A stretch of 38,202 nucleotides of DNA. It comes from a virus. The translations under genes and the position numbers were made by a program. The stretch lies in the IMG/VR virus record IMGVR_UViG_3300025889_000339, positions 1 to 38,202 of that record; one strand, given 5' to 3'. How positions within the stretch are numbered: position 1 is the stretch's first letter; every line of letters begins with the position of its first letter. The notes beneath the pieces were generated by a model, which was not told the DNA's origin, searched no databases, and was given only the letters and a program-made list of their open reading frames with translations. Positions 9,521 to 38,202 of the stretch are shown here, in pieces.

Positions 9521-9524
9521 CCAT

Positions 9525-18974: not shown

Positions 18975-19000
18975 AGTATTATCCTTATGTTTTTTGTTTT
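18975..19000 (-). promoter_or_regulatory. Leader box before gene 18579-18974
   Basis: The minus strand reads AAAAACATAAGGATAATACT before ATG. The AACATAA and AATACTATG parts are identical to the leader of the AAA+ gene, which lacks the GGA. No clear sigma-70 promoter is recognised further upstream. Confidence 0.5.
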
Positions 19001-19055
19001 GGTTGTATTCAACGCACCCTCGTGATGCGCTGAAGTCAACCTCCAACCGTAAATG

Positions 19056-19373
19056 TCCATCAGGGAATCTGTCACATTATGATGGATTGCTGGCGTTGGA
19101 ATTGCCCGTGCGGATTGGTGTGGTTGCGCTGGACGTGCGCTCTCGTCTCCGTGCCTGAGAATGCCCCATATTCACCGACCGCCTATGCGCTGCAAAGCGC
19201 ACGCCTACTCGCTGACTTCCAAGCTACTGCTTGGCTTTGATGGACGCGTCACGATAGGTCACACTACCTCGCCCAGAATGCCTCAGAGATTACTGAGAAT
19301 CGTAATGTAGGAGCGGGAACCCCGCTCGTGCCGAGAACCCCGGCGGAGGCAGTGGAAGCTAGCCACTGGCCTC
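19056..19373. ncRNA. Hairpin-rich non-coding region, candidate structured RNA or DNA element
   Basis: The 458-bp gap 18975-19432 has no convincing gene. It holds inverted repeats: TCCATC/GATGGA (19056-61 and 19081-86); TGCGCT-GCAA-AGCGCA (19186-19201, a GNRA-type loop); CCAAGC-tact-GCTTGG (19219-19234); CTCAG/CTGAG (19282-19297); GAGCGGG-AAC-CCCGCTC (19311-19327); GCCG/CGGC (19330-19344); and a 10-bp stem with one bulge (19346-19373). The last three are stacked with 1-2 bases between them. Such density suggests a folded RNA, or a packaging or replication element. Strand and function are unknown. The divergent promoters for the leftward operon and the gene at 19433 should also lie here. Confidence 0.45.
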
Positions 19374-19432
19374 GTGTAGCTATTCGCCAATGAGCGCTGG
19401 AAGTTAACCCTAGCTAGGCTTATTTCTTAGCT

Positions 19433-19888
19433 ATGGTTAAGATCAGCGAAGATCAGTTGAGGCTAGCTAAGAAAATGAGAGCGGAGGGAAGCAGCTGGAA
19501 AGAGATTGCAGACGCAACCGGAGCCAGTGTCAGAGGGCTGACATACAACGCAAAGAAGAACGGTTGGAATCTGAAAAGCATTGCCAAGCCATTGCCAAAG
19601 CAGGCAAAGCAGATTGCCAAGCTAGAACAGAAGAGTATTGAACAGATAGCAGAACTGGTAAGAGATCAGTTAGCTAATGATATTGAAGCCAGCGCAAACA
19701 CTTTGCGACACTGGCAATCTGATAGCTTGGATCTAAGAGACTGGCAAAAACGCGAACAGATTGCCGAATCCATACAAAAACGTGCTAGTTCATTGCTAAA
19801 CATTGGCAATCAGGCTGAAAATGTGGTGAATATAGCAGTTTTGAGCCAGCTGCCAGAAGCTGCAAGTAGTTCTGTAATAGATGGTTAG
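19433..19888 (+). CDS. Small terminase subunit candidate (HTH DNA-binding)
   Basis: A 151-residue protein. The N-terminus has an HTH of the kind found in small terminases and related phage DNA-binding proteins (LAKKMRAEGSSWKEIADATG, then ASVRGLTYNAKKNGW; about residues 9-44). A basic linker rich in KQ/AK follows, then a long helical middle with possible coiled coil (residues about 60-135). Small terminases recognise the packaging site and recruit the large subunit. The gene itself contains many TTGCCA/TGGCAA hexamers, as packaging sites often lie in or near the small-subunit gene. It is distant from the large terminase (33489). A transcription regulator is the alternative. Confidence 0.5.
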   Translation: MVKISEDQLRLAKKMRAEGSSWKEIADATGASVRGLTYNAKKNGWNLKSIAKPLPKQAKQIAKLEQKSIEQIAELVRDQLANDIEASANTLRHWQSDSLDLRDWQKREQIAESIQKRASSLLNIGNQAENVVNIAVLSQLPEAASSSVIDG

Positions 19889-19932
19889 CAAGCTATTGCC
19901 ATAGGTTGGCAATGAACAATCGACACTGGCAA
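19581..19932. repeat. Nine TTGCCA/TGGCAA hexamers in 352 bp
   Basis: Exact copies start at 19581, 19592, 19614, 19712, 19742, 19804, 19896, 19907 and 19927. The first six lie in the coding sequence and the last three in the non-coding DNA after it. 19895-19913 forms ATTGCCA-taggt-TGGCAAT, a 7-bp inverted repeat. About 0.2 copies would be expected by chance in this length. They may be binding sites for the protein encoded here (packaging site) or for a replication protein. Confidence 0.6.
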
Positions 19933-20009
19933 AACAGACACCACCCCCCCCCCTTCGGCCCCCCGTCATTTATATATACGACCCCACACATTTTTTGGGT
20001 AAAATCCAA

Positions 20010-20041
20010 ATCAGGCAATAAGCCCCTATGCGCTGCCTGAT
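20010..20041. repeat. 8-bp inverted repeat ATCAGGCA/TGCCTGAT
   Basis: Perfect arms at 20010-20017 and 20034-20041 with a 16-base loop. It lies between the C-rich and AT-rich parts of the origin-like region. It could form a hairpin in single-stranded DNA or RNA. Confidence 0.5.
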
Positions 20042-20105
20042 CCCCCCTCATACTCCCCCCATATACCAGTTTTATACTATTATATATACACACTACTACT
20101 ACATA

Positions 20106-20161
20106 GGAACGAGCGTTCCGCTTTTAGGAACGGTTGTTCCGCTTTTAGGAACGAGTGTTCC
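20106..20161. repeat. Iteron array 2: inverted copy of the initiator-gene array
   Basis: Units GGAAC-N4-GTTCC at 20106-20119, 20127-20140 and 20148-20161, with 7-bp spacers GCTTTTA and 21-bp period. On the minus strand the spacers read TAAAAGC, the central unit is identical to the third unit of array 1, and the array is followed by TATGTAGTAGTAGT, matching TACGTAGTAGTAGT after array 1. It is adjacent to AT-rich DNA. It is probably the second binding site for the initiator, and may be the functional origin. Confidence 0.8.
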
Positions 20162-20221
20162 TATTGGCCTTTGCTGGCTCTGTAATAGGGCTAGAAACGC
20201 GCTGTCGTGTTGTGTAGTGTA

Positions 20222-20557
20222 ATGTCATTAATGAAGGATGAAACGCAGTCTGAGGGGCATTCTGAAGCGATTACGGGGTATTGTATGAAGTGCAGAGCGC
20301 ATCAACCAATACTCGATGCTGTGGAGTATGAGAATAAGGAGAAGTTGGGCGTGAAGGGCAGGTGTGGTGAGTGTGGCAGTGGTATGTTCAAGTTCATTGG
20401 CTCTAAGACTCGTAATAGACCGGAGGGATATGCTGCGGCGAGGGCTCGTGAGCGTAGGCTGGAACGCCGTAAGGCGAAGCTGCTTGACGGTGTGCCACCT
20501 ATCAGGGCAGCGTATATCAGTGATCAGGAAGACCCCAACCCCAGAGATTGTCAATGA
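20222..20557 (+). CDS. Zinc-ribbon protein, DUF5679-like
   Basis: A 111-residue protein. ATG 20222 or 20231 may be the start, since neither has a clear ribosome binding site. Residues 19-60 form a zinc ribbon: GYCMKCR (Cys21, Cys24), a loop ending VKGRCGECGSGMFKF (Cys48, Cys51). This fits DUF5679-type proteins with YCxKC and GxCxxCGxxMF(K/R). The C-terminal part is highly basic (ARARERRLERRKAK). It may bind nucleic acid or dock on another protein. The end overlaps the next gene. Confidence 0.7.
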   Translation: MSLMKDETQSEGHSEAITGYCMKCRAHQPILDAVEYENKEKLGVKGRCGECGSGMFKFIGSKTRNRPEGYAAARARERRLERRKAKLLDGVPPIRAAYISDQEDPNPRDCQ

Positions 20558-20786
20558 GGTGCTCAGTGAGAAGCCTCTTCATTTGAAGACATACAGGCTG
20601 GACTCTTCTGAGATAGCAGCGATACAGCAGGGTCTGAGTGCCGTGGAGTTTCTTATAGAACTGTTTAAGGCTAGGGGAGACACTGAACGTGCTGATACAC
20701 TAGCCTGTCACGCATACAACCTCACGGGTATGCTTAGGGATCTGGATTCGCTACCCGCTGTGACTAACGATATGGGCTACAATTAG
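20520..20786 (+). CDS. Small hypothetical phage protein
   Basis: An 88-residue protein from a probable GTG start at 20520. Upstream in-frame sequence is antisense-like and overlaps the zinc-ribbon gene. It is helical (SSEIAAIQQGLSAVEFLIELFKARGDTERADTL...), with a regular pattern that could form a helical hairpin. No family is recognised. The stop overlaps the convergent gene's stop by three bases. Start position is uncertain. Confidence 0.55.
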   Translation: MIRKTPTPEIVNEVLSEKPLHLKTYRLDSSEIAAIQQGLSAVEFLIELFKARGDTERADTLACHAYNLTGMLRDLDSLPAVTNDMGYN

Positions 20787-20971
20787 TCCTCTTCGTCGCT
20801 GGCTCCGTCCTGAGCTTCTAATGCTAGCCTGTGCTGGTGCATTGCTAGGATGCCTACCATCTCGTGGTAGTAGAGTGTGCCACTAAACTCGTTGATAATC
20901 ATTGCCAGAGCGTTATCAAACTGCTCAACGAGTGGCAGGTTGCTGTGGTGGTAGCTACTCATCCTGTTCAT
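20783..20971 (-). CDS. Small phage protein of unknown function
   Basis: A 62-residue protein from ATG 20971, inside the end of the giant gene (17-base overlap). A second ATG at 20962 is possible. Sequence: YHHSNLPLVEQFDNALAMIINEFSG, then a short helical region and an acidic tail (DGASDEED). No family is recognised. It is the promoter-distal gene of the virion operon, so it is presumably late. Confidence 0.55.
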   Translation of the reverse strand: MNRMSSYHHSNLPLVEQFDNALAMIINEFSGTLYYHEMVGILAMHQHRLALEAQDGASDEED

Positions 20972-23900
20972 TGATTGGTTTTCTGTTGTATTCCCTCTTA
21001 ACCACATTGATAGCCCCAATAGGAACTGGGTGCTTGGCCGCAATAGCTGATTTTAGGATGCTCTTAGAGATTTGCATTGGTCGATACAAGCCAGCGAGTA
21101 TGTGCCTAGCGTCTGTTTCGGTCATACCGTTGGTTGCCAGTGCATTCAGAATCTGGGCATCACTCAGACCACCCAGACGCGCTGCTTGGACCTGACGTTG
21201 AACGTCTTTGAAGATCTCATACCTGCTGTCATTGGCAGATCGGTAAGCAGAGATCATACTCTCAGAGCTAACTGTGCCACGATTGCCAGCAACTTTATTG
21301 AAGATCTTATTGGCATCATTGATCCTCCTCTTATTGGCAAATGACATACGTTGCAGCTTGTCTGTGTAGTCGATGGTTCTAAGCCTGAGGCCTGTAATCT
21401 CAGATAGGGTTTCCTTAGTCAGCGTAGGCTCTTCACCGGACTCTAGTGTTTTTCCGCTATAAGCCGGGAACCACCTGTTGATAGCTCTCTCAGCTGTCCC
21501 CGGCAGGAACAGCTTCCCTATGTGCGTAACGAAGTCCAGAGCTTGATCTGTGCCGCTGGCTTCTGGGTTCCAGATGTAGTTGCCATAGCTGTCGTTGTTT
21601 CTGAGCACATCAATAATTCCGCCTGCAATGATTGTTTCAGACACAAACGGATCAAAAGCAGCTGCCGCAGAGTTAATGATGTGGCTGGAGGCTGAGCCAT
21701 CGCCCTGCACGCCTCTAGCTCCAAACAGAGACATTATGGCATCTGTCGTAGCAGAGTAGGGGTTATTGAAGCTGACGTTGATGTAATTGATTTTACCGTC
21801 CTCGTCGCGGCTGAAGTAGAACGTGGAGTTCTTCTCGTAGTCTGCTAGCAGTGATCTGACTTCATCCTGCTCCTCACCGCTGACCCCTCCTAGCATTGAG
21901 CTTAGCAGCTGGAATCCGTAGGCGTAAACACCGGTAACAGCTAGATGCCCGCCTAGTCGCTGCATACCATAGCTAGTGTTGCCGTTTTTAATCTCTTCAA
22001 CAGCAATCTTAATGTTGTTTACCTGAGTTCTGATTGACTCGTAGGCGAACGACATAAACGGACCAAGTGCTGGCTGCATAGCTAGGAACTGAGCCCCAGG
22101 AGGGATCTCGGAGTATGTGGGCATTGTCTGCCTCACGCGAGTAGCGGCTTTCTGGTCCAGCTCTTTAGGGGTTAGCCCTGCATTGTTTGGCAGCTTAGCG
22201 AGCTTGGATCTCTCCATCTCGAAAGCCATTATCTTACCTAGCTCATCCGATGCCCGGTAGATACGCGTTGCTGTGCCTGCTGTTTTGTTCCAAACCTTAC
22301 CAATCGCTTCAGCGAATGTTTTGTTTAAGGACTGGTTCGGGTCGAGTGATGACGACAGGTTCTGGTTTAGGTCTCCCAGAGCTCGCTTCAGCTCAGCTGT
22401 TGTGATCTCTTCACCAACCAAGCCAAGCTCAGTCATTCTATTAAAGTAAGCTTGTGCAGCTTTGTTGCTGCCAGCAGCGTCAGCCCATATAGCTTTTACG
22501 GATGGGACAAATGACTTCCACTCCCTCAGATTCCAGTAACCGCTCATAGCTAAGAAGAACGGCTGACCTATCAAGTTTCTAACGTGAGTCATCAGACTGC
22601 CGACAGTCTTTACTGACTTTGTAGCTACATTGAGCTGGGCGAGCATATCAAACATCCCGTTCCCAAGCCCGTTGTAGGTTTCGTTGTAGGTGTCGAGCAG
22701 TTCCTTAACTTCGGGCGTTGTGTAAAGCCCAGCCAGAGGCGAGTAGCTTTCGTTGGCTGGTGTGATCTTACTGTTAGCGATTCCAGCTCTGGAAGCCATA
22801 GCCTGCTTCTCAAAGAAGATCTTATTCATACCGGCTTCCCTCACATCGTTCAGAAACTTCTGGTTCCCGATGAGATGAGCCATACGGCTAACGGTTCTGG
22901 CGTAATTGACATCTGGATCGGTGTATTCACCCATCAATGCCCGGATCTCTGGGGCGATAGTCTTACGTTTCTTAAACAGGTCCAGATTCTTTGCGCCCAG
23001 CTTACCACTCGTGAACTTATCTACTGCGCCCTCAGTGGAGAGCTGGTCTAGCAAGTCTTGAACAATAACCTGAGCTTCCATCCTAGCTCTGGATTCAGTG
23101 TATGGCATTTGCCCCTTACGAGGCTTCCGGTTCATCAGCTCAGCTGTGATGTAGTTCTCGGCGGATGTCAGGACTTCTGGCGCTATGTTGCTCTTATAGT
23201 CTGCGTCATCGAAGATGCGGTAGCTGCGAGCCAGATACATACCAATGTTACCCTCAACCTTCGCTTTGAGTTCCCCGTCGATATAGCCTTCCTGCATCAT
23301 ATACCTAGACAGAGCGTCTATCTGATTACGCATAGAGGCTACAGCTTGAGCTGTGCGTTCGGGCAAAGGCTTGAGCACCATATTGAGGCCGTTTAGGTGC
23401 ATATTGATGAGAGTCCTGTCAGCCTGACTGATGTCAGATCCGTATTCTGCTCTTACAGCAGACTCCAAATCTCGTCGCTGCTGCTTAACGACATTCATCA
23501 CTTTGTTGATGTAGCCGTCTTTCTGCACCCTAAGCTGGAACAGGTTGATGTCTGCTTTACCGGTCAGCGGGTTGGTGATGTTTTTGAGCGGATCTTTGAG
23601 GATTGTTTTCCCAAACTTCTTCAGTTCTAGCAGCTTTTTCTTAGGGTCAGCGATTGCGCCGAGTATGCGCTCAATCAAGCTAGCTCTGGGGCTGGAGGCG
23701 TATGCGTATGGATTCTCTGCGTTAGCGGAGTTCTCACGATGTATCTCGCTCAGAATGTCGCCAAACTCCGGGTTCACATTGTCGATGTAGTCGATCAGCT
23801 TCATCTGAGCATCTTTCAGAACTTGGCTAATCCTAGACTTAGTGACACCACGGTCTATCGCAATCTCGGTGACCGTTTTGTTTCCGGTGAACACATCAAT

Positions 23901-26720
23901 GAGCACGCTTTGCTGCATTGGCGTCCACCCAATCTTAGGCGACTCTGCTTCCAAAGTCTGGACCATACCCTCACCGCCCGGAGTCAGCCCAGCTGCTGAT
24001 GACTTGCTAGCCACCTGCATTCCGTCAGAACTGTCTTCGGCGACTGGGGCGTCTATCGAAAGCTTCTCGACATTGCCGCCACGTTTCTTCGCATTTGATC
24101 GCTTTATGGCGTCTTTGCCACGATTGCTGACAACTGTCTTAAACCAAGACAACGGAGGGACACCTTCATCCGACTCAACGAACTCTCCAGCTTTGTATGC
24201 TTCATCAAATTCTAGAATAGCTTTGTAGCGAGTGTAGTCGTATTGCTCAGACCCAACAGCAGGCCAGCCCTGTATCCTTAGAGCACTGTCAATTCGTTCC
24301 TGAGCTACCCTATAATGATCCTCCCTAGCATCCTCTTCGGTAGCTACTGGCTTCCTAGATTGCTGTGCTTGCTCAACAGCTGTGCGCTCTTCGACAGTAG
24401 ATGTATCGGCAACTTCCGCTGAATACATATCAAGCAGGAAGTTATCAACTTGATCAAAGTGCTGCTTTGCTGCTCCAGAGAGCTGGGCTCTCCCCAGAAT
24501 TCTCTGGATTGCTTCGAGGATGTTTCGGATCAGTGTGTTGCGCTTGGCGTCTTCAGTGACTGACTCAGTGTGCTTTCTCTGTATGAGCTGGCGTATGAAC
24601 TCCTGAGCCATATGCACATCGTCTCGGAAGTTCATTCCGTAGACACGACGAGCAGATGCTTTCTCATCAGCTGTCATACCGTCAGCTACCTTAGTGTATG
24701 CGTCTTCGACATACTGAGTGACAGACATTGACCCGTCTATGTCACCAGCAGACAGCTGCCTGTTGTATTCAGATTTGAGAGCTTGAACATCGAGGTTGTG
24801 GATAGCTTCTTCCTCGATGGCTTTACTTAGACTGAAACGCTTATTGTTTCTGCTCTCAGCCAAACGCTTAGGATCAATAAAGATTGTATCCGTGTTCCCG
24901 GCTCTAGCTGCGCTAGCTACCCCAGCTCCAGCTGGTAGCTCAACAACTGAAATCTTCCTGACACCAAGCATTGACCCGAATTGCCTACGCAGGTCATTGA
25001 AGGCTTTTCTAAACTCGCCTCTGAGCTGGTTGTCCAGTTCGGCATCAAGCTCAACAGATTCTCCACCAACTTTAAGAGGTTTTATCTCAACGACTGGCTC
25101 CGGTTCTACCTGATCAACTTCCTGCTCTGGCTGTGCATCCACCTGTGCGGGTGTGTCTATGTATGCTTGTTGGAGCTGTTGAAGTTGTTCAATGGTGATT
25201 GGGGTAGATTGATCAGGTATACCCGGAATCAGTCTAGCTATGTTCTGGTCGATCCGGTTGATGTCTTCTAGCACCTGAGGCAGAGCTTCGGGACTGCTGT
25301 CCAAAGAGTCCGCTACTGCTTCTGATTTCCTGTCTAGAAGTCTGTTTACAGCCGCTCTATTAGTTGGGGTCAGGTTGCCCCTCTCTAGCTCCTGCTCTGC
25401 AATCTCGGAGAGCTGTATAGCGTCCGGTGGAGTGGACATTCTCTGTAGATCTGCCTGACCCTCTAGCACGCGCTCATCTTCTGCGGCTTGTATTTGCTCA
25501 GCGTCTGCTTCTGAAAGTGGATCAAGCGGTAGCTCACTAACCGGACGTTTTCCTCCCATCGGAACGTCTTTGTTAGCTTCGGCAAACTGTGCCGCCGGGT
25601 CATCGAGCTTAGCGCCCTCAGGCAGAACCTGACCAATAGCAGCTTGCTGTTCGCGTGCTGCGTCCTGTTGATCTAGTTTCGCAGCAGTGCGTGGCGCGGA
25701 GTCTCGTAATGTCTGTCTTCTAGCTTCTTCTTCTGGAGATTTCCTTCTCCTACTTACAGCTGACGGAACCGAACCGAGTCCACCCAAAGTTGATCCAACT
25801 AAGAAAGCATCCCACGCTTCTCTGAATGACTGGTCAAGCGTTACGCTTGGGTCGTATGACTTCCTAGCAATGACATATGAGCCAATGAACGCGGATGGCG
25901 CTTCCTCAACAGCACCCTCAATAAGAGCACCCTTAGCTATCTGAGCCAGCCCAGAACCTCTAGCAACACTGTCGATGCCTTCCTGAACTGGTTTAGATCT
26001 TAGGGCGAGTGCTAGATTCTCTAAGTCAACAGCCCCTAGCTTGTTTGCTGCAACTCCACCACCTGCTGTAAGAAGCACATCCAGCGAGCCCTGAGCTGCT
26101 GCTGGCTTTACAGCTGCCTTAGCAGCCTCTTCCTCGCTCATCCCCTGATCTTCATAGCCCTTACGAGCTTGCTGATACGTGGAGCCGAAAGACTGAAGAC
26201 CGGAAAGCACAGCAGTGCCAGCCGTGATTGCGCCAGCGCCCAGTCCTCCAAGCGTTCCAGCTGCACCAGCTCCCACTACAGGAACCAAGCTAGCAGCACC
26301 GCTACCTAGTTTTGATGGGAACGAATCCTGATCAACACCTCTGTCAAAGCTTGCGCTAGTTAGATCTGAGGCTATGTCTCCGCTTTCCCTAAGCCGCTGA
26401 GACATCTTAGCCGCTTGGTCTGCATTTTCCCTAGCCCACTTCGCAGCTTCAGCGCTAAACGGTTTGTAGAGGTTTTCAACAATGCTCCATCCAGCAGCTC
26501 CGGTGTCGTAAACAGCAGATGCCAGAAACGATTTGCCAAAGTCTTCAACGGCTCCGGCTATCGGGTTGCGAGTGAATAGCGAGTAGTCTTTAGCGAAGTC
26601 GGGATCTTCCTCTGCTAACTTCGGAAAGCGACTACCAAGTGCTACAGTTATTTCTTCATCTGAGTTCTCACGAAGCTTCGGGAACCTAGACCTTAAAGTG
26701 TCGAGCGTTCTGGATGGCAT
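20955..26720 (-). CDS. Giant internal virion / ejection protein (1921 aa) with sigma-70-like and zincin-like segments
   Basis: A polyvalent virion protein of the T7 gp16 size class. The N-terminus repeats SRFPKL and DEE/DPDF units (residues 1-45), then a Gly/Ala-rich hydrophobic stretch (138-180) that could cross a membrane. Residues 560-700 look like a degenerate zincin: EEEAIHNLD (636-644) matches HExxH with the first His as Glu637. Residues 800-985 resemble sigma-70: WFKTVVSNRGKDAIKR (region 2-like, 859-874) and WTPMQQSVLIDVF with TEIAIDRGVTKSRISQVL (region 4-like, 932-968). The remaining 900 residues are long helical or beta segments typical of ejection proteins (possible LPD38-like C-terminus). 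It is the end of the virion operon and probably enters the cell with the DNA. Confidence 0.75.
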   Translation of the reverse strand: MPSRTLDTLRSRFPKLRENSDEEITVALGSRFPKLAEEDPDFAKDYSLFTRNPIAGAVEDFGKSFLASAVYDTGAAGWSIVENLYKPFSAEAAKWARENADQAAKMSQRLRESGDIASDLTSASFDRGVDQDSFPSKLGSGAASLVPVVGAGAAGTLGGLGAGAITAGTAVLSGLQSFGSTYQQARKGYEDQGMSEEEAAKAAVKPAAAQGSLDVLLTAGGGVAANKLGAVDLENLALALRSKPVQEGIDSVARGSGLAQIAKGALIEGAVEEAPSAFIGSYVIARKSYDPSVTLDQSFREAWDAFLVGSTLGGLGSVPSAVSRRRKSPEEEARRQTLRDSAPRTAAKLDQQDAAREQQAAIGQVLPEGAKLDDPAAQFAEANKDVPMGGKRPVSELPLDPLSEADAEQIQAAEDERVLEGQADLQRMSTPPDAIQLSEIAEQELERGNLTPTNRAAVNRLLDRKSEAVADSLDSSPEALPQVLEDINRIDQNIARLIPGIPDQSTPITIEQLQQLQQAYIDTPAQVDAQPEQEVDQVEPEPVVEIKPLKVGGESVELDAELDNQLRGEFRKAFNDLRRQFGSMLGVRKISVVELPAGAGVASAARAGNTDTIFIDPKRLAESRNNKRFSLSKAIEEEAIHNLDVQALKSEYNRQLSAGDIDGSMSVTQYVEDAYTKVADGMTADEKASARRVYGMNFRDDVHMAQEFIRQLIQRKHTESVTEDAKRNTLIRNILEAIQRILGRAQLSGAAKQHFDQVDNFLLDMYSAEVADTSTVEERTAVEQAQQSRKPVATEEDAREDHYRVAQERIDSALRIQGWPAVGSEQYDYTRYKAILEFDEAYKAGEFVESDEGVPPLSWFKTVVSNRGKDAIKRSNAKKRGGNVEKLSIDAPVAEDSSDGMQVASKSSAAGLTPGGEGMVQTLEAESPKIGWTPMQQSVLIDVFTGNKTVTEIAIDRGVTKSRISQVLKDAQMKLIDYIDNVNPEFGDILSEIHRENSANAENPYAYASSPRASLIERILGAIADPKKKLLELKKFGKTILKDPLKNITNPLTGKADINLFQLRVQKDGYINKVMNVVKQQRRDLESAVRAEYGSDISQADRTLINMHLNGLNMVLKPLPERTAQAVASMRNQIDALSRYMMQEGYIDGELKAKVEGNIGMYLARSYRIFDDADYKSNIAPEVLTSAENYITAELMNRKPRKGQMPYTESRARMEAQVIVQDLLDQLSTEGAVDKFTSGKLGAKNLDLFKKRKTIAPEIRALMGEYTDPDVNYARTVSRMAHLIGNQKFLNDVREAGMNKIFFEKQAMASRAGIANSKITPANESYSPLAGLYTTPEVKELLDTYNETYNGLGNGMFDMLAQLNVATKSVKTVGSLMTHVRNLIGQPFFLAMSGYWNLREWKSFVPSVKAIWADAAGSNKAAQAYFNRMTELGLVGEEITTAELKRALGDLNQNLSSSLDPNQSLNKTFAEAIGKVWNKTAGTATRIYRASDELGKIMAFEMERSKLAKLPNNAGLTPKELDQKAATRVRQTMPTYSEIPPGAQFLAMQPALGPFMSFAYESIRTQVNNIKIAVEEIKNGNTSYGMQRLGGHLAVTGVYAYGFQLLSSMLGGVSGEEQDEVRSLLADYEKNSTFYFSRDEDGKINYINVSFNNPYSATTDAIMSLFGARGVQGDGSASSHIINSAAAAFDPFVSETIIAGGIIDVLRNNDSYGNYIWNPEASGTDQALDFVTHIGKLFLPGTAERAINRWFPAYSGKTLESGEEPTLTKETLSEITGLRLRTIDYTDKLQRMSFANKRRINDANKIFNKVAGNRGTVSSESMISAYRSANDSRYEIFKDVQRQVQAARLGGLSDAQILNALATNGMTETDARHILAGLYRPMQISKSILKSAIAAKHPVPIGAINVVKREYNRKPINEQDE

Positions 26721-26732
26721 GATTGAGTTGCC

Positions 26733-27683
26733 TTAGAAAATTGCACCACCTGCGTTGAGGAAGTTTAAAATATCCTCAAAGCTTGACTCCTCTGTCAGCG
26801 GGGGTGGGCCGTTATCCTCTGGTCTGTTCATCGCAGCGTTCATAGCTTTCTTAAATCCCTCTGTATCGAACACGCCGAGTTCACCCATCTCTCCCGGCGT
26901 GTAGAACTTCACTGCACTTTCTTCAGCCCACTTTTGCTGACGCTCAGTAGCATCAGGTGGTAATAGCTTTTTCACTTCAGCCATCAGCTTAAGCTCTGAC
27001 AGCCGCTTGGCTTGCCTAGCATCAGAAGCACGAAGTTCGGTGTATTCGTTCCAGTCGTATGAAAACGTATTGGTGTCTTGATTGAAGGTAACGGACTCTG
27101 GTTTAAATTTTGTCATATACTCCAATCCGTCGTTCCACCGTTTCTGACTAGCTGCTTGAGCTTCGTATTGAAGCTTTAGGCTGCGATCATTGCTTGCAAC
27201 ACTGATTGCATTAAACCGCATTGCAGTCGCTTCTTCTCGCAGCTCTTTTGGAAGATTGGCTGGCTCAGCTGGGGGGCTGCCCTCGCCGTTCCAGTTGGAA
27301 AGCTGGGTGCTATATGAAGACATAATTGGAGCGAACTGCTTTGCCTCATTAGCTTTTCGCATCATTTCCTGACTTTCAAATTGAGACTTATACAACTGTG
27401 CGAGCTGTAGCGATTGATTAACTATGGCGTTTTCCTGCCTAAGCGTGTATTCCTTATTCCTCAGTTCCAGCTCATCGAGTGCAATCTTTCTGTTCAGCTC
27501 GAACTGCCTAGACCGCTCCGCGAAATTTGTTCTGAACTGTTCGTTCTGGTCACCTCTACTCAGGTCAAATTGCCTGCGCTGCTCAGCCATACGGTCGTCA
27601 GCCTGTCTCGTCTGAGTTCCAAACTGAGCCGCCCTCATTCCGAGGTTTGCTCCCTGTAAAAAGTAATCTACTGGTTCTGCCAT
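26733..27683 (-). CDS. Internal virion protein candidate, coiled-coil
   Basis: A 316-residue protein; ATG 27683 is chosen over a GTG at 27713 inside the preceding gene. Residues 20-120 are rich in Gln, Arg, Glu and Asp (RQADDRMAEQRRQFDLSRGD and similar), giving a long charged coiled coil. The rest has aromatic and acidic segments and a Gly-rich end. Position between another internal virion candidate and the giant ejection protein suggests it belongs to the ejected core, as the three internal proteins of T7 do. No sequence signature proves it. Confidence 0.6.
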   Translation of the reverse strand: MAEPVDYFLQGANLGMRAAQFGTQTRQADDRMAEQRRQFDLSRGDQNEQFRTNFAERSRQFELNRKIALDELELRNKEYTLRQENAIVNQSLQLAQLYKSQFESQEMMRKANEAKQFAPIMSSYSTQLSNWNGEGSPPAEPANLPKELREEATAMRFNAISVASNDRSLKLQYEAQAASQKRWNDGLEYMTKFKPESVTFNQDTNTFSYDWNEYTELRASDARQAKRLSELKLMAEVKKLLPPDATERQQKWAEESAVKFYTPGEMGELGVFDTEGFKKAMNAAMNRPEDNGPPPLTEESSFEDILNFLNAGGAIF

Positions 27684-27687
27684 AGTG

Positions 27688-28524
27688 TTATCGGAATTTA
27701 GGAATAAACCCACCAGCTGCTGGGTTGACTGTTGAGTTAGTGAGCGGGTCGTATTGACCGCCTATAGGATTGACACCTCCTGTGTATCTGGTTGTCGGGT
27801 ATCCACCCGTCCCGCCAAACGTAGGTGCGGCCGCAGCAGCTGGAGCCATTGCGCTCTGGAATCCAGCCCCCATCATCATACCTCCAGCAGAACTCATAAA
27901 GTTGCCGACTCTACTCTGCCAGCTGTTTGCAGCATCAGACTGCCGCTTACCAACCAGCGCGTTGTATGCAAACTGATTCTCCTGTATTGAGTTTGCGATT
28001 CGCTGTGATGGTGACACATACATCGACGATGTAGACATTGGGTTCACCATATAGTTCTGGCGAAGGTTGGATGACAGCTGGTTGAACGCACCCAAACCGG
28101 CCTGAGTCATCTGCAAGCTAGATAAACCCAGATCACGAGCGGTCAGGTTCCTGCCAGCTGCGCTACCACCGAGCCCCATACTGGTCCCGCGCTCAGCAGC
28201 TCTACGCATAATCATCTGCTGATCTGCCATCGGTAGCTGACCTGCAATCATATTCTGAACAGCACTGCCAGCACCGCTAAGCAGGTCGCGGTAGTTAGGC
28301 ATTGTGCGTGCCAGCATCGAGTCAAGCCTGTCCTGATCGGCGGCTGTCGTCTGGTCAGCTAGTTGGCGTGCCTGATCAAAGCTGGCTAGGTTTGCAGCGA
28401 TTGCTGCTTCCTGTTCCTTAGTCTGGTCGACGGGTTTGTAGGTGGGGATCTTCGGCTTCTTCTTAAATAAGGAGCCACCTAATCCTAACGCAGCTCCTGC
28501 TGCCATCATTGTAAACGGTTCCAT
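27688..28524 (-). CDS. Internal virion protein candidate, Ala/Gly/Met-rich (gp14-like)
   Basis: A 278-residue protein starting MEPFTMMAAGAALGLGGSLF, a hydrophobic N-terminus that could insert in a membrane. A helical part rich in Ala, Gln and Asp (residues 30-75) follows, then Gly/Met-rich loops (TSMGLGGSAAGRN, AGGMMMGAGFQSAM). This composition is common in small ejection proteins of podoviruses. It is the first of three candidate internal proteins, in size order small-medium-giant like T7 gp14, gp15 and gp16. Assignment is by composition and order. Confidence 0.6.
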   Translation of the reverse strand: MEPFTMMAAGAALGLGGSLFKKKPKIPTYKPVDQTKEQEAAIAANLASFDQARQLADQTTAADQDRLDSMLARTMPNYRDLLSGAGSAVQNMIAGQLPMADQQMIMRRAAERGTSMGLGGSAAGRNLTARDLGLSSLQMTQAGLGAFNQLSSNLRQNYMVNPMSTSSMYVSPSQRIANSIQENQFAYNALVGKRQSDAANSWQSRVGNFMSSAGGMMMGAGFQSAMAPAAAAAPTFGGTGGYPTTRYTGGVNPIGGQYDPLTNSTVNPAAGGFIPKFR

Positions 28525-28525
28525 C

Positions 28526-29536
28526 TTAGATCACGCTTTCTATGCCGCCACCACCGGTGGTATTTAGGTTTGTCATTTGTAAAACTGGAACCACGCCATC
28601 ACCCATATGATTAGCGATCTGGTTCTGAAGTGAGTCGTATGCGAGGTTGCGATACTCTGCTGCTGCCCCGAAGTCTCTGTTCTCCTCAAGCTTGATGGCG
28701 ATTGCCATATTCTTCACAGCGTAGAGGTCGCTTACCATCAGGACATCCGTGTCGTTCACGGCATTGATGAACCTCAGCTTAGCTATAACCGTGACTGGAA
28801 CTCGCTTCTCATCGCCGTCCTGACACCCAGCAGCACCACCCAAGCTAGGTATCATTGACCGACGATAGCTGGGTAGCGTCTCGTCAGGTTGGTATGTAGC
28901 TATGTCAACCAGAGTAGGGGTAACAGCATCCGTAATCTCATAGACCTGCACGTTGCCCTGAGTGGTGTCTTTTAGAACATTCGTAACGCTCTTAAAGCTA
29001 GTGGTTGTGTCTACGTAACCGTTGACCAGCGTAACAACCTCACCATCCTGATACACGGCAGTAGCTCCGCTACCGCTTTTTAGTGTTCTTACCCAGTTGT
29101 TGTTGCTGTCGTAGCCCTGTATGGTGATGGTCTTACCGGCGTCAGCTTCTAGGAACGCATACACACGCAGCTGTTTGCCTGCACCTGACAGGTCACTGTG
29201 AGTAGGGGATTCACCACGGTCCAGTAGCTGGTAACCGATGTTGTCCTTATTGGACATCAAGCCGTAGCCGCTTTCCACGAACTCAAACCAACCGTTACGA
29301 ACTGTGCCGGGGTTGCTGCACACAGCTACAGTTTCGATTGTCTCGATCTGTCTGGGCCAAGCAATACAGCCGTTGGTAGCGCATAGCGTGAACTTACCAT
29401 ACGTTCCCTTCCACTTACCGCTCTCGATCAGTCTGCGCTGAGCTTCGTTGATGTAGTCAGTCGTGCGCGAATCTGTAGCACACAGGTTGAGGTGCTTAGC
29501 GATCCGCTCCTTAGCTGTTCCGAGGGTGACCTTCAT
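28526..29536 (-). CDS. Tail/neck structural protein candidate (gp11-like adaptor)
   Basis: A 336-residue protein. The start TLGTAKERIAKHLNLCATDSR with TTDYINEAQRRLIESGKW resembles the N-terminal helices of podovirus tail tubular/adaptor proteins. The middle has many beta strands (FLEADAGKTITIQGYD, GNVQVYEITDAV), and the C-terminus returns to helices (ENRDFGAAAEYRNLAYDSLQ). Such adaptors join the portal to the nozzle. It lies between fibre/nozzle candidates and the ejection proteins. Function is inferred from pattern and order. Confidence 0.6.
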   Translation of the reverse strand: MKVTLGTAKERIAKHLNLCATDSRTTDYINEAQRRLIESGKWKGTYGKFTLCATNGCIAWPRQIETIETVAVCSNPGTVRNGWFEFVESGYGLMSNKDNIGYQLLDRGESPTHSDLSGAGKQLRVYAFLEADAGKTITIQGYDSNNNWVRTLKSGSGATAVYQDGEVVTLVNGYVDTTTSFKSVTNVLKDTTQGNVQVYEITDAVTPTLVDIATYQPDETLPSYRRSMIPSLGGAAGCQDGDEKRVPVTVIAKLRFINAVNDTDVLMVSDLYAVKNMAIAIKLEENRDFGAAAEYRNLAYDSLQNQIANHMGDGVVPVLQMTNLNTTGGGGIESVI

Positions 29537-30291
29537 TATGGTGTGTAGTAGATGCGAGCGGTTCGTTTAATGAAGTAAACGCCGTAGTATGGAGGCAGGT
29601 TTGTGATTGGATCATTGTCACCACCAACCGTCTCAGTAGTAAGCACGCCCGCTGCTGCAATCGAGTTGGTGTAGCCTGTGCTAGTTGTGTGACCGCTGTT
29701 CTCGTGAGCTAAGTTGTCAGTCAGCCCGCTGGCATCTGATCCAGCTGTGCCGCCAGATGCTTTGTAGTAAGCTTTACCCTTATGTTGGTGATCGGGGAGT
29801 TGTCCGCTAGTCAGCGTGATCTCGTCGCTACCTCCAGTTCCGTTCACGTTTACCACTGTGCCATTAGCAAACGTGCCAGCGCCAACTAGGAACTTAGCCG
29901 ATAAAGCTGTGTCAACTTCCCAGAACGGACCCGTGTAAGCCGTAGCTGTAGATGATGAGTTGCCCGGAGCTTCGTATGAAAGCAGGTCAGCAGTTGTGCC
30001 TGCCCAGATTCTGCGCTCACTACCACTGGCTGGCACTGGGTGTTTAGCAATCCAGTAGCCATCGTAGTAGACATACAGCCTGTCAGGGTAGCCACCGTCA
30101 GTTCTGATCCACGGCTTATCTCTGTCAGCGGCAGAAGGCTCAGTGTCACCGTAGTTAAACAGCGAGTAAGCTCCGTTGACGTAAGCTGTGGTTAGATCGA
30201 CAAACGTGTTATAAAGCTCCGACACGGAGCCAAAGCATGTTCCATCTGGAACCGTTCCCTTAACGAGAGTGACTGATTGATTAGTAGGCAT
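29536..30291 (-). CDS. Tail fibre or collar-type protein
   Basis: A 251-residue protein, beta-rich, with a typical late phage end (NLPPYYGVYFIKRTARIYYTP) and internal Gly/Thr-rich segments (LTSGQLPDHQHKGKAYY). The DHxHxG pattern, with two His on a strand, is a hallmark of trimeric phage fibres and collar proteins. It probably binds the host surface or completes the tail tip. The start overlaps no gene, and the ribosome binding site is poor. Its stop overlaps the next start. Confidence 0.7.
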   Translation of the reverse strand: MPTNQSVTLVKGTVPDGTCFGSVSELYNTFVDLTTAYVNGAYSLFNYGDTEPSAADRDKPWIRTDGGYPDRLYVYYDGYWIAKHPVPASGSERRIWAGTTADLLSYEAPGNSSSTATAYTGPFWEVDTALSAKFLVGAGTFANGTVVNVNGTGGSDEITLTSGQLPDHQHKGKAYYKASGGTAGSDASGLTDNLAHENSGHTTSTGYTNSIAAAGVLTTETVGGDNDPITNLPPYYGVYFIKRTARIYYTP

Positions 30292-30296
30292 TGTAT

Positions 30297-30572
30297 TTAG
30301 CTGGGTATGATAAATTCAGATAGATGAGTGATGAACAGGAAGCCGTCATCAGAGATCAGTGCTGTCGAGGTTGATGATGTCGAGCTTGTGCAATCTCCAC
30401 TCAGCACTGGCTGGTATGCGGATTGAGCCGACAGGTCGTTACAGCTGATTGCTGTAGACGGCGAAGCACTGACTGTCCACGTATCAGCAACTGGCGTGCA
30501 TCCAAGCGAATAGCTGAACGGGCTTTGGTCCGTTGAATCTGAGCAACTAACTGTTAGGGATGGACTACTCAT
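30297..30572 (-). CDS. Small Ser/Thr-rich virion-associated protein candidate
   Basis: A 91-residue protein rich in Ser, Thr and Cys (six cysteines; SLTVSCSDSTDQSPFSY, then DCTSSTSSTSTALI). It could form a small beta domain. It begins with an ATGA overlap on the nozzle-like gene and is followed by a fibre gene, so it is probably a minor structural protein. No family is recognised. Confidence 0.55.
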   Translation of the reverse strand: MSSPSLTVSCSDSTDQSPFSYSLGCTPVADTWTVSASPSTAISCNDLSAQSAYQPVLSGDCTSSTSSTSTALISDDGFLFITHLSEFIIPS

Positions 30573-32320
30573 ACACAGCTGCTAGTGCTGCCGCATCCTC
30601 CGTATGGTTCTTCAATCACTGGGTATGCGTGCAATCGGAAGCCCTTAATCCTGACCTGACCAGTCCAGCCAATCCTAACGGACATCTCGTAGCCGTTACG
30701 CATAGGAGCACCGTTGGTTGACTCGCAATCATCCTCTGGCTGGGGTAGGCGCAGTCGAGTCCTGTATTGAGGTTTGTAGTTATTGAACGTCAGACAGGAA
30801 CCAACGTCTGGGTTGCAGTTGGATGTTTTGGCGCATTCAATGAACGTGTTCCAGTTGACCCACGCTGGATACTGGTTGGGCTTGTATTTGACATCGAATG
30901 AAACCTGACCCTCTAGCTGGTCTATCCACATCTCTCCATACTCAAGCCGCTTTAGTTCAAACGGATTCTCAAACGTGTAGCTAGGGCTTTCGATGTAGCA
31001 GCTGATACTGGTTGAGTTGTTGTCCTTCTTACCATTGCGTGTCAGCTCCCAAAGCTGAATAGGGCAGGAGGAGCTGAGGTTGAAAACAAAGCAGCGCGAC
31101 TCACCCTCAACATCAGCCGTTAATAGCTGTAGGAAATTGAGTCCCGTCCAAAGTCCCTCCCACGCTGCGGGCGCTTTCGCCCCAGTCCCTCCTACCAAAT
31201 CGAAGTCCAGAACAGCTAATCCCTTAAAGTAAGTGCCACGACTGCTTGGCTGCGGTGTGACAGTGGACAGGTAACGGTTATCAAACAGGACACCGCTAGT
31301 GGTTTCGGCTATGCCTGTCTGTGTCTCGTTAGTTAGAAGCGGGTTGATCTCACGGCTGATCGGTATCTGACCGTATTCCTGCCACTCTCGCCTGCTGCTG
31401 ACGTAAGACCTAATACCATCAGGAGCACGATAGAACATATCGCCGTTAACCAGCACGCAGCTACGATCACTAACCGCACCGTAATTGATAGCCACAATCC
31501 GAACAGTCGGATACGTGACATTCTTCCAATCGTCTCTGCTTGTTGGGACATTGACTGCAAATACTGCATCAGTAGTGTGAACCAGCAGTTCGCCCTGACC
31601 CAAACTGCTGTCAGGCTGGTTCATAAACTTCATAGCTGTGATGTTGCCTGTATCAAGCGGCACAGCGAACGCGCCGCCCTCAGCTATGTAGGTGTTCTCC
31701 GTGAACTGAATAACCTCAGTGCCGCCACCAGAAATATCCCCAGCAACAAACTCATTGCGTCTGGCAACCCAGAGCCTGCCATTACCAAACGCCATAGCGG
31801 TTCCAGTGGGAACCTCGTCTGCATCAGGAGATGATCTGCGGCATCCCGCACCGTTGTAAATGATCGCTCTGCTCTGACCGTCCTGTATGACTAGGTATTG
31901 CTCAGCCTGTTGGAAATAGAAAACAGGTATGTCCGGTGGATTGATGTCAGCAGTGCCATCAGACTTCTTTGGGGTAATGTCGCTGACCACACCGGACGGC
32001 ATGTCAATGCGGAAGATGTATCCACCAATAGCGCAAACCAGATAGCTATACCTGCCGTATCTGTAGTTGTAAGCGCCCTGATAACGGCCAGTCTCCCAGA
32101 TCGCCTGCATTGCCTCAGCTTCCTCCGGCAGTGTAGCTGAGAAGGTGAGAGGTATGTTATTGAACGCTGGTCTGGTTTTGGCGAAACCACCGCGCATCGT
32201 TACGTTCACAGCAAAGCTAGCCTGATTACGTGGCAACATGCTGGGAGCTTTCCCAGCGTCTATCCCGCGTTCTAGGGTTATAAACCCGTCAGAGATGCGC
32301 TGTTGATCAATGACTGGCAT
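30569..32320 (-). CDS. Tail nozzle-like structural protein
   Basis: A 583-residue beta-rich protein. The N-terminal pattern GIDAGKAPSMLPRNQASFAVNVTMRGG recurs in large tail proteins of marine podoviruses (G-x-xxG-xAPxxLPxNQ-x-xAxNxTxRGGF). The rest alternates strands and loops with several cysteines near the C-terminus, consistent with a multi-domain propeller or nozzle. It would form the distal tail through which DNA leaves. Start overlaps the fibre gene's stop, so they are coupled. Confidence 0.65.
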   Translation of the reverse strand: MPVIDQQRISDGFITLERGIDAGKAPSMLPRNQASFAVNVTMRGGFAKTRPAFNNIPLTFSATLPEEAEAMQAIWETGRYQGAYNYRYGRYSYLVCAIGGYIFRIDMPSGVVSDITPKKSDGTADINPPDIPVFYFQQAEQYLVIQDGQSRAIIYNGAGCRRSSPDADEVPTGTAMAFGNGRLWVARRNEFVAGDISGGGTEVIQFTENTYIAEGGAFAVPLDTGNITAMKFMNQPDSSLGQGELLVHTTDAVFAVNVPTSRDDWKNVTYPTVRIVAINYGAVSDRSCVLVNGDMFYRAPDGIRSYVSSRREWQEYGQIPISREINPLLTNETQTGIAETTSGVLFDNRYLSTVTPQPSSRGTYFKGLAVLDFDLVGGTGAKAPAAWEGLWTGLNFLQLLTADVEGESRCFVFNLSSSCPIQLWELTRNGKKDNNSTSISCYIESPSYTFENPFELKRLEYGEMWIDQLEGQVSFDVKYKPNQYPAWVNWNTFIECAKTSNCNPDVGSCLTFNNYKPQYRTRLRLPQPEDDCESTNGAPMRNGYEMSVRIGWTGQVRIKGFRLHAYPVIEEPYGGCGSTSSCV

Positions 32321-33405
32321 CAGTTAAATGCAACTACGGATATTGAGTGGTCTGCGCCTGTGGCGGCGGTAGTTGAAGTAAACGTGACCGAAGTTGTGCT
32401 GCGGGTGGTTATTTCGTAAGCGGTATCGTCGCTGGACGAAAACAACAAAGGCAGCGTGGTATCTATTGGGTCGGTGAAAGTAATCGTGAATGTTATAGGG
32501 TTACTCACAGACCAAGTGCTTGACACCGAGGCAACATTCACCGACGAGGAGTCAGCAGTTGCGGTTGCGGCGGAGTAATCTCTAGTAACGTGAGTTCTTA
32601 CAGCATAGCTTGGGCCTGTTGTGTCAACCCACTGAGGAGTCGAGCCGCTCAGCGACAGAACCTGACCAGCAGAACCAATAGCCAACCTTACCCAGCTGCT
32701 GCCGTTCCAGTATGCTAAGTCGCCAGCTGCACCGCCGCTGTTAGCTAGGTCAGTGAGCGGCAGTGAACCAGTAACGCTGCTACCGCTGATGTCTATCTGC
32801 CCAGAAACCTGAGACCCACCCAGATCAACAGTGCCACTCAGGTCACTGAAAGCTGGTTGCTTCCACTTAATGCCTAAGTTGAGCGTTGAGTCTGCAAATA
32901 GCGCAGTGCCGTTAGCCCCCAGTGAAAGCTTGTCCGCTGAAGCGCTAAGACCGTTATAGGTAGCTAGCTGGCCCTTAGCTGTAAGCCCGGTAATTTCTCC
33001 GTCAGCTCCAGCTGGACCCTGCATACCAGCAGGCACAACCAGTGTGCCAGATGGGATAGTCCCTCCCGTCACTCCGGGGTCGCCAGTGTAATCCAACCGC
33101 TGCACGTTTAAGTAGTCAGACCCTACTCCTAATACTTTGAAGTGACCTACGTTGGCGAAGTAAACAATCTGCCCAGCAGTAAAAGTAACGTCTGTGTCAT
33201 CAGTGACGTAAGCGTTAATGATGCCGAGCGCAGCGGGAATTGTGTAAGCTGCGGTTGTATTAGTGTAGGCGCTAATGCCGTCAGCCCCGTTTGTCCCGTT
33301 GGTTCCAGCTGGGCCAGCTGGTCCCTGAGGACCGGGCGTGTTGACTGTCGTTGATGTGCAGGTTGTTTCGCAGCAGTCGGTGTTCTGGTTGAGAGTAATA
33401 CCCAT
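32320..33405 (-). CDS. Collagen-like tail fibre / spike protein
   Basis: A 361-residue protein from ATG 33405; an upstream TTG is less likely. After a short Cys-containing head it has a collagen-like stretch of Gly-x-y triplets (GPQGPAGPAGTNGTNGADG), a second short one (MQGPAGADGE), and a long beta-helical or beta-sandwich C-terminal part (SGQVLSLSG-type turns). Collagen-like segments trimerise phage fibres. It is the first leftward virion gene and faces the terminase gene across an 83-bp control region. Confidence 0.75.
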   Translation of the reverse strand: MGITLNQNTDCCETTCTSTTVNTPGPQGPAGPAGTNGTNGADGISAYTNTTAAYTIPAALGIINAYVTDDTDVTFTAGQIVYFANVGHFKVLGVGSDYLNVQRLDYTGDPGVTGGTIPSGTLVVPAGMQGPAGADGEITGLTAKGQLATYNGLSASADKLSLGANGTALFADSTLNLGIKWKQPAFSDLSGTVDLGGSQVSGQIDISGSSVTGSLPLTDLANSGGAAGDLAYWNGSSWVRLAIGSAGQVLSLSGSTPQWVDTTGPSYAVRTHVTRDYSAATATADSSSVNVASVSSTWSVSNPITFTITFTDPIDTTLPLLFSSSDDTAYEITTRSTTSVTFTSTTAATGADHSISVVAFN

Positions 33406-33488
33406 CGTTTGACAATCTTTTGAAAGTTTGAGGGAGTGTTCCCTATAAGGGTAAATCAGTATTTCTGAAGCCCCTACTGTCAAACGGA
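33406..33488. promoter_or_regulatory. Divergent late control region with 9-bp inverted repeat
   Basis: CGTTTGACA (33406-33414) and TGTCAAACG (33478-33486) are perfect inverted copies at the two edges of the region that separates the leftward virion genes from the large terminase. Each contains TTGACA, but a matching -10 at normal spacing is not found on either strand. Inside lies AGGGA-gtgt-TCCCT (33431-33444). The repeats may be binding sites for a late activator or for phage-specific transcription. Confidence 0.45.
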
Positions 33489-37938: not shown

Positions 37939-37965
37939 TGCAACACAACAAAGTCGAGACAACTA

Positions 37966-38202
37966 ATGATACTGGTTATTCCGTTCTGTATTAAGGACTG
38001 TAAGAGCGCGTTAAAGAACATTGAGTGGTCATATGAGTTGGATGGGAAGTCAGACTTCGATGTCCTACTGTCGTATGACACTGACGTTCCTGAGCAATAT
38101 ATCAGGCAAATAGACGAGGCTGCAGGTAGGGCGTTTAGGAGCGTCATACACTTCTGCTACAACGAGTGGAAGGGCAGACCCAACTGGCCAAATCCCCAGA
38201 AC
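37966..38202 (+). CDS. Glycosyltransferase-like protein, 3' end outside window
   Basis: ATG 37966 opens a frame that runs off the window (79 codons seen). The sequence starts MILVIPFCIKDCKSALKN, the beta strand and first helix of a GT-A fold (GT2-like), then VLLSYDTDVPEQY, then WKGRPNWPNPQN, a segment seen in phage nucleotide-sugar transferases. It follows the portal gene after 27 bases, so the late operon continues to the right. It may glycosylate virion or cell surface components. The partial length limits certainty. Confidence 0.55.
   Translation, partial: MILVIPFCIKDCKSALKNIEWSYELDGKSDFDVLLSYDTDVPEQYIRQIDEAAGRAFRSVIHFCYNEWKGRPNWPNPQN

Follow-up and report, generated by a model that had tools for sequence, protein, structure and literature searches.

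Can a protein of the phage particle contain a piece of an RNA polymerase sigma factor and, if it does, what would that piece do in the infected cell? The question is raised by the window analysed here (the whole stretch of 38,202 nucleotides of IMG/VR record IMGVR_UViG_3300025889_000339), in which a preliminary description, made from the sequence alone, placed a sigma-70-like segment inside a giant leftward virion protein. The frame that holds the segment, ORF 20955–26720 on the minus strand, is a single open frame of 1921 amino acids. Positions 23766–24323 (minus) encode its residues 800–985 in frame, and the translation of those residues contains WFKTVVSNRGKDAIKR, SIDAPV, WTPMQQSVLIDVF and EIAIDRGVTKSRISQVL, which confirms the coordinates and motifs first quoted. 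The sigma-homologous part is slightly longer than first described, covering residues about 794–992. The features discussed below are collected in Table 1.

Table 1. Features of the giant-protein locus, in positions of the window
Feature	Position	Strand	Basis
Giant virion/ejection-type protein, 1921 aa	20955..26720	-	open frame; PHROG 22602 match; dN/dS 0.061
Sigma2-like half, residues about 794-885	24066..24341	-	model helices; VIA rows; profile-profile region 2
Sigma4-like half with helix-turn-helix, residues about 913-992	23745..23984	-	Pfam, PDB profile, VIA, profile-profile region 4
Zincin-like domain (tentative fold), residues about 551-785, directly upstream of the sigma segment	24366..25070	-	EExxH for HExxH
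Gly/Ala-rich hydrophobic stretch, residues about 135-180	26181..26318	-	by eye from translation
C-terminal core, residues 1069-1893, common to giant proteins of cultured and uncultured phages	21042..23516	-	tblastn, IMG/VR
326-aa ORF immediately upstream, positioned like a second ejection protein	26733..27713	-	position and size only; best family match E 0.094
278-aa ORF, positioned like a third ejection protein	27688..28524	-	position and glycine-rich start only; best family match E 0.26
Divergent late control region, two inverted CGTTTGACA copies around a central CCC/GGG palindrome	33406..33486	.	arms conserved in G002

The giant protein, its relatives and its cargo

We searched IMG/VR with an alignment of the C-terminal core (A1, four rows: the window and three phage relatives), which matched 250 stretches, 199 of them confirmed; the best 80 of the 199 make up 78 loci. 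The segment is present in three divergent lineages, the window itself (L004 in our numbering), L011 (also G002) and L013 (also G003), whose cores are about 46–50% identical to that of the window (48% for L011 and 46% for L013 over the best segment), while L009 and L010 (the latter also G001) have cores 99% identical to it and the other relatives listed reach at most 31%. The giant frame is 2307 aa long in L011 and 2968 aa long in L013, the ORFs of all three lineages are open, and in each the segment keeps its position between the zincin-like domain and the core.

Among 50 dereplicated giant-protein relatives, some of which are cut by contig ends, three have the segment. In a set of 50 records searched with Pfam Sigma70_r4, the model matched 14 at E <= 0.1 and did so in the giant protein only for G001, G002 and G003, the remaining matches lying in frames of 66–320 aa. 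A profile of the segment, run against 2763 ORFs of 86 loci, recovered L004, L001, L002, L009, L010, L011 and L013, plus L003, which is cut off; the rest had E >= 0.064. In 50,697 phage records the window segment had no match at E <= 0.01 and the L013 segment none at E <= 10, and the L011 segment gave 11 records at E 0.8 to 9, four of which are Bacillus phage sigma factors. No further lineages came from segment scans of IMG/VR and one genome scan; these scans are not exhaustive, one of them having missed L013 despite its presence in the query.

The protein is separated from its near-identical relative in G001 by 150 synonymous and 29 nonsynonymous changes (dN/dS 0.061). In the same comparison the 186 codons of the sigma segment differ by 6 synonymous changes and 2 nonsynonymous ones, a ratio of 0.10 that rests on few counts. 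The ratios of 0.48–0.55 between the window and L011 were set aside because sites are near saturation.

The C-terminal core links the protein to phage particles. PHROG 22602, 'virion structural protein', matches residues 1152–1886 with E 2.5e-46, and by tblastn the core is homologous to giant proteins in 11 phage records (E 2e-82 to 2e-8). These include gp123 of Cellulophaga phage phi18:3, annotated as a virion protein in a record that notes MS/MS evidence, a protein of vB_PunP_Y3 annotated as an ADP-ribosyltransferase, and a 'putative virion-associated RNA polymerase' of StenR_269 (22.8% identity over 25% of the query). Because the core is homologous to the MS/MS-annotated gp123, the 1921-aa protein is itself likely to be present in virions. 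The giant proteins of vB_PunP_Y3 and phi18:3 are 24–32% identical to it over the core and contain no relative of the sigma segment.

The protein was first likened to T7 gp16. The likeness is one of place and size class; a sequence relation was not found, a profile of the core having no ejection protein among the PDB sequence matches listed. The protein differs from the N4 virion RNA polymerase and T7 gp16 in this respect and also in that scans with Pfam, PHROGs and NCBIfam found no polymerase family in it. The T7-type RNA polymerase family PF00940 had no match in four records, a result of little weight because control genomes were equally without a match.

What precedes the core varies from relative to relative. 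In the N-terminal parts of 22 relatives, hand-chosen from the 50 clusters, we found ART-PolyVal in nine, LPD1 in four and LPD5 in three, with InPase, ddrB-ParB, MuF_C, LPD3 and others in one or two each. Since relatives carry other cargo before the same core, we regard the 1921-aa protein as a polyvalent-type protein with a sigma-derived cargo domain. Its core is indeed common to giant multidomain proteins with ART and LPD domains, and the window protein itself has no curated LPD or ART domain, Pfam giving only Sigma70_r4 at E <= 1. Its residues 1–782 have no Pfam match at E <= 0.5, and an insert in the L013 protein matches ART-PolyVal below the cut-off. The Gly/Ala-rich stretch near the N terminus is, judged from its composition, a possible membrane-inserting part.

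Directly upstream of the segment, a domain modelled at low confidence (pLDDT 61.5) tentatively has a zincin-like fold. Its best nine VIA rows, at Z 7.4–5.5, are TTHA0227 of Thermus, selecases, abylysin, jannalysin and a predicted zincin-like metalloprotease, and a plain Foldseek search with the model gave 27 rows of E 0.41 and up with no zincins among them. In all three lineages the catalytic motif HExxH is replaced by EExxH, which makes metallopeptidase activity doubtful.

In T7 and N4, two smaller genes before a giant one form the ejection-protein arrangement. Two smaller ORFs likewise precede the 1921-aa gene, a likeness of position only. The phage is probably short-tailed, and its gene set includes a tyrosine integrase, a DnaB helicase, a PD-(D/E)XK nuclease and a terminase. 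The window shares its gene order with G001 (48,854 bases), with 82–98% identity over the matched pieces. About 9.6 kb of G001 is absent from the window and presumably holds the capsid genes; two proteins scanned from this extra part had no significant family match. With Sigma70_r4 and TIGR02937 we recognised no stand-alone sigma factor in G001–G003, of which G002 and G003 are fragments; outside the giant-protein segment the two models gave one weak match in G001, in a short frame.

Homology of the embedded segment to sigma-70 factors

Searches with single sequences are suggestive of a sigma factor, most clearly in its region 4. In both the window and L011, no Pfam family matches the segment better than Sigma70_r4. 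In the window it matches residues 934–975 at E 7.2e-4 and 19.5 bits when the whole 1921-aa protein is searched and at E 5.4e-5 and 23.1 bits when the segment is searched alone, just under the cut-off of 24.1. The 99%-identical copy in G001 scores 28.2 bits and L011 31.2 and 33.9 bits, all above that cut-off, and L013 lies below it (14.4 bits, E 0.027). The best NCBIfam match of L011 is a sigma-28 model (E 7.3e-7). The sigma70-ECF model TIGR02937 aligns to the window over model positions 54–163 of 165, that is, regions 2.3–4 (E 3.2e-4, 20.4 bits), and to L013 over positions 28–164 (E 8.3e-5), and its curated cut-off of 42.9 bits is not reached by the segment in any lineage (14–24 bits). For Pfam Sigma70_r2 there was no match at E <= 1 in four records, the best elsewhere being that of L013, at E 0.028 and below the cut-off. 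Seven PHROG families match the segment: the best is phrog_11138, of unknown function (E 3.1e-5), a transcriptional activator family follows, and two sigma factor families are among the weak matches. Weaker matches to other helix-turn-helix models of Pfam, HTH_10 and KORA, also occur.

Matches of this strength could in principle reflect convergence, or a chance helix-turn-helix in a helical structural protein. An ordinary helix-turn-helix ORF of the same phage, 5347–5880, reaches Sigma70_r4 with E 4.4e-4, its sole Pfam family at E <= 0.01, so that single-sequence matches alone are not decisive for sigma homology; Sigma70_r4_2 also weakly matches ORF 19433–19888. In PHROGs, ORF 5347–5880 finds 15 families, diverse in kind, at E <= 1, and the contrast with the segment is only partial because the segment's best family is of unknown function and just two are named sigma factor.

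The decisive evidence comes from the other lineages and from profiles. A profile built from the four-row alignment of the segment (A2, in which two rows are near-identical) matched 21 PDB sequences at E <= 1, all 21 of them sigma factors (best E 0.013), in every case via region 4, with the best stretches within profile positions 125–189. In hhalign, A2 columns 50–186 are collinear with columns 49–187, or regions 2.2–4, of an alignment of ten ECF sigma factors (E. coli RpoE and nine plasmid genes), with a score of 36.3, a probability of 65% and E 6.2e-5, and 100 column shuffles of this comparison gave a maximum score of 18.2. Region 2 alone scores 23.2 (probability 10%; maximum of 100 shuffles 15.5) and region 4 alone 27.5 (probability 27%; maximum of 100 shuffles 17.5). 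Since both region scores exceed all shuffles, both halves are sigma-like and stand in the right order and spacing.

The predicted structure is in keeping with this. AlphaFold2, given A2, builds helices at 13–35, 43–61 and 75–99 and, past a linker of low confidence, five more between 132 and 218 (pLDDT 67, pTM 0.41). VIA places model residues 12–103 on ECF sigma2 domains (6jcx, Z 7.5, rmsd 4.0, 85 aligned; 5uxx, Z 7.4, rmsd 3.3, 84 aligned) and residues 131–210 on sigma4 (7rdq, Z 6.1, rmsd 3.4, 76 aligned; 4g7h, Z 6.0, rmsd 2.6, 73 aligned). Each of rows 1–12 is either a sigma chain or the F chain of an initiation complex, the last of them being T4 gp55; unrelated helical proteins begin at rank 13 and span Z 6.5–5.8. 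Middling Z values are common for helical models, and a Z below 8 is no proof by itself. The first six rows of a Foldseek search of the PDB are entries with a sigma factor (best E 0.014, TM-scores 0.2–0.4), including 9a4r 'RPSH', which we take to be sigma-H; ferritins come next and were taken as helical-bundle noise. A family's absence from the VIA or Foldseek rows does not speak against it. At modest confidence, then, the segment is predicted to fold with ECF sigma2 and sigma4 as its best matches, and the fold comparison that the preliminary description had proposed comes out in favour of regions 2 and 4 with the reservation that Z stays below 8 and pLDDT at 67.

Taken together, the PDB profile with its 21 of 21 sigma factors, the L011 score above the Pfam cut-off and the profile–profile score against shuffles led us to set a chance helix-turn-helix aside, and with the independent lineages they make convergence or chance highly improbable. 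We conclude with high confidence that residues about 794–992 are homologous to sigma-70 factors. The sigma-70-like segment first noticed from the sequence alone is thereby upheld by the Pfam scores of the lineages, the PDB profile, the profile–profile match and VIA. Its resemblance in both region 2 and region 4 is supported by the profile–profile scores and the VIA matches of the model, and the profile search that had been suggested as a check does return sigma-70 and ECF matches (the PDB profile and the ten-ECF comparison).

What the segment might do

The reading that we favour, and to which we give about an even chance, is that the segment is ejected and, once in the cell, recruits host RNA polymerase to the genome as it enters. 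A sigma-70-derived cargo domain, made up of a sigma2-like half, a linker and a sigma4-like half, would be packaged as part of a polyvalent-type virion protein and then leave the particle together with the DNA. Inside the cell, this domain would contact the RNA polymerase core of the host and bring it to the incoming genome, and the polymerase so recruited would either start the first phage transcripts, at promoters that the domain may help to choose, before any phage protein is made, or be loaded so that transcription pulls the genome in. The upstream zincin-like domain may help to free the cargo, perhaps by proteolytic release.

The segment has diverged from a canonical sigma factor, and unevenly. 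Region 4 is the better conserved half: in the SRxSQ turn of its subregion 4.2, R, S and Q do not vary in the four-row alignment, and the turn reads SRVSQ in E. coli FliA. In known sigma factors, a glutamine and an aspartate of region 2.2 contact the beta-prime clamp of the core. The glutamine (the Q51 column, invariant in the ten aligned ECFs) is I, Y and Y in the window, L011 and L013, respectively. Three residues earlier, the aspartate is replaced by Y in the window and kept in L011 and L013. The window also keeps the tryptophan of region 2.3, where L013 has Y and L011 a gap. Measured against the sigma family, the segment has the region 4 helix-turn-helix and, on profile–profile and VIA evidence only, the fold of regions 2.3–2.4; it lacks the invariant glutamine of region 2.2 and falls short of the TIGR02937 cut-off. 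As the glutamine is missing in all three lineages, we term the segment sigma-derived and do not file it as a sigma factor.

This bears on the strongest form of the original proposal, in which a sigma factor of the phage's own arrives in the particle as part of an ejection protein and would reprogram the host core polymerase before any phage gene is expressed. The sigma homology and the homology of the core to a virion protein speak for a particle-borne promoter-selectivity factor, the divergence of region 2.2, core-binding in known sigmas, speaks against it, and we hold this form to be somewhat doubtful. The same divergence, beside a better conserved region 4, would suit a sigma-derived decoy or blocker that holds host RNA polymerase, at the beta flap via the sigma4 part, without initiating, and so helps host shut-off. 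Relatives carry ADP-ribosyltransferase cargo, and host polymerase is a target of Alt, an ADP-ribosyltransferase that T4 injects (PMC5512222). A pure blocker, however, would need no region 2, and region 2 scores above all 100 shuffles with both halves ordered in three lineages; we regard a blocker as unlikely.

It could also be that only the helix-turn-helix half matters, as a DNA-binding domain that keeps the ejected protein attached to the phage genome, the sigma2-like half being a relic. The strongest single-domain matches are those of region 4, with HTH_10 and KORA behind them, and the sigma2 similarity is weaker. A simple tether is distinctly unlikely when Sigma70_r4 is the best Pfam family in the window and L011, the PDB rows are all sigma factors and both halves are ordered.

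The preliminary description offered the divergent boxes at 33406–33486, as speculation, as possible targets. They sit between the leftward operon with the giant-protein gene and the terminase operon. G002 has the same CGTTTGACA arms and the same 81-bp outer span, in a surrounding 307-base alignment that is 73% identical, and no exact copies other than those of the pair are present in the window or in the G001 and G002 pieces. When at most one mismatch is allowed, CGTTTGACA occurs 10 times against a shuffle mean of 8.0 and is thus no commoner than expected; only the conserved exact pair is notable. The boxes are therefore real and strikingly conserved, and as nothing ties them to the segment they are a candidate target only.

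No repeated promoter-like motif stood out, counts in 15 hand-chosen intergenic gaps being no higher than in random window pieces (20 draws). What we took to be the FliA-type consensus had one match with three mismatches, at 33422–33448 (0.12 expected; 12 of 100 shuffles had one), which was dropped as a cognate promoter because it is not conserved in G002. Sigma-70-type promoter-like sites were rarer than in shuffles over 19000–38202 (9 against a mean of 15.4). The conserved boxes, lying between two late operons, one of which encodes the 1921-aa protein, would accord with action late in infection, the freshly synthesised protein acting as a late sigma or as an autoregulator of the virion operons. 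A 1921-residue structural protein would be an odd carrier for a late factor, though, a link between box and segment was not found, and the FliA-like match is not kept in G002, and we consider late action very unlikely. Recruitment of host polymerase at entry remains our preferred reading.

Relation to known systems

Polyvalent proteins, which occur in phages and conjugative elements (Iyer et al. 2017, PMC5512222), are likewise giant and have a zincin-like domain and cargo before a common core, and relatives of the present protein carry their ART-PolyVal and LPD domains. The cargo described there includes an N4-like polymerase or a modifying enzyme, whereas here it is of sigma type; the word 'sigma' is absent from the main text of that paper. 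In the tape-measure protein of P23-45, which has a fused RNA polymerase and also a metallopeptidase domain (PMC10770324), a transcription device is joined to a giant virion protein with a metallopeptidase domain, as here. According to the same source P23-45 has a whole polymerase, whereas the present protein has only a promoter-selectivity-type domain, which would depend on the host core. The N4 virion RNA polymerase and T7 gp16 are large ejection proteins beside two smaller ones, as is the case here by position, and a preprint (PMC12633501) says of T7 gp16 that it recruits host RNA polymerase. Together with the P23-45 fusion, this is a precedent for the reading that we favour.

The nearest particle-borne sigma that we saw in open-licence PMC papers is that of SU10 (gp32; gp36 in phiEco32), a stand-alone phage ECF sigma of 25.8 kDa, encoded by a middle-class gene of its own and unfused (PMC4281155). 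It was seen in mass spectrometry of amplified, concentrated phage with 8.41% coverage from one peptide (PMC4281155), beside DNA polymerase and other non-structural proteins, so that carry-over is possible. In searches of open-licence PMC papers for virion, injected, packaged or ejected sigma factors we came across no sigma domain fused to a virion protein, and within that scope the statement that no ejection protein with a fused sigma domain had been described holds. With ECF and sigma-28 (FliA/WhiG) factors the segment shares collinear regions 2.2–4 and the SRxSQ turn of region 4.2; unlike them, it is embedded in a 1921-aa virion-type protein and lacks the region 2.2 glutamine.

In a phage without its own polymerase, the recruitment of host RNA polymerase within the first seconds is usually credited to strong promoters of the host type. 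With a sigma-type domain in the virion, a selectivity factor would be delivered as well, polymerase recruitment would become part of the ejection machine, and the known cargo range of polyvalent proteins would widen. If true, this would be a third way to start phage transcription, beside injected polymerases (N4, P23-45) and injected modifying enzymes (T4 Alt).

Domains of the giant protein

Between the sigma segment and the C-terminal core, the giant protein of L013, one of the divergent lineages that also carry the sigma segment, holds an insert with an ADP-ribosyltransferase-like domain, matched to the ART-PolyVal family with an E of 1.2e-5, which is below the cut-off. One protein in this lineage would appear to combine sigma-type and ART-type cargo. 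In the zincin-like domain, glutamate replaces the first histidine of HExxH in all three lineages (the window, L011 and L013).

Coordinates of the features
Feature	Window	Related locus	Detail
Tyrosine integrase gene	1715-2521
Degenerate tRNA match	2627-2685		Rfam; adjoins integrase gene
Three consecutive related ORFs	7926-10241		290, 241 and 238 aa
Zincin-like domain	24366-25070
Inverted CGTTTGACA pair	33406-33486	L094 12045-12125	compared between two phages
Insert between sigma segment and core		L013 7616-9868	~750 residues

Late boxes and glycosyltransferase-like ORFs

The two inverted copies of CGTTTGACA flank a central CCC-ATA-GGG palindrome, and their span is the same 81 bp in both phages, where local identity is 73%. 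Provided that the leftward gene starts at ATG 33405, the boxes sit at the starts of two divergent late genes. The pair resembles a conserved set of divergent late promoters or operators. The three consecutive ORFs share a YAD-D motif and, read by eye, look like glycosyltransferases.

Genome ends, host and lifestyle

Because window positions 19691-19862 match both ends of G001, a syntenic 48,854-base contig, a terminal repeat of ~170 bp or a circular assembly is suggested. The sole core relative from one scan of bacterial genomes was L090 (Marivita MAG, 3,000 bases). Its best segment aligns with query residues 48-217 at 37% identity, and this find hints faintly at a Rhodobacteraceae host. The tRNA-like match scores 34.6 bits over model positions 7-64 of 71, and ARAGORN finds no tRNA gene there. 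Since the match, beside the integrase gene, may be a tRNA-derived sequence that holds an attP, the phage may be temperate.
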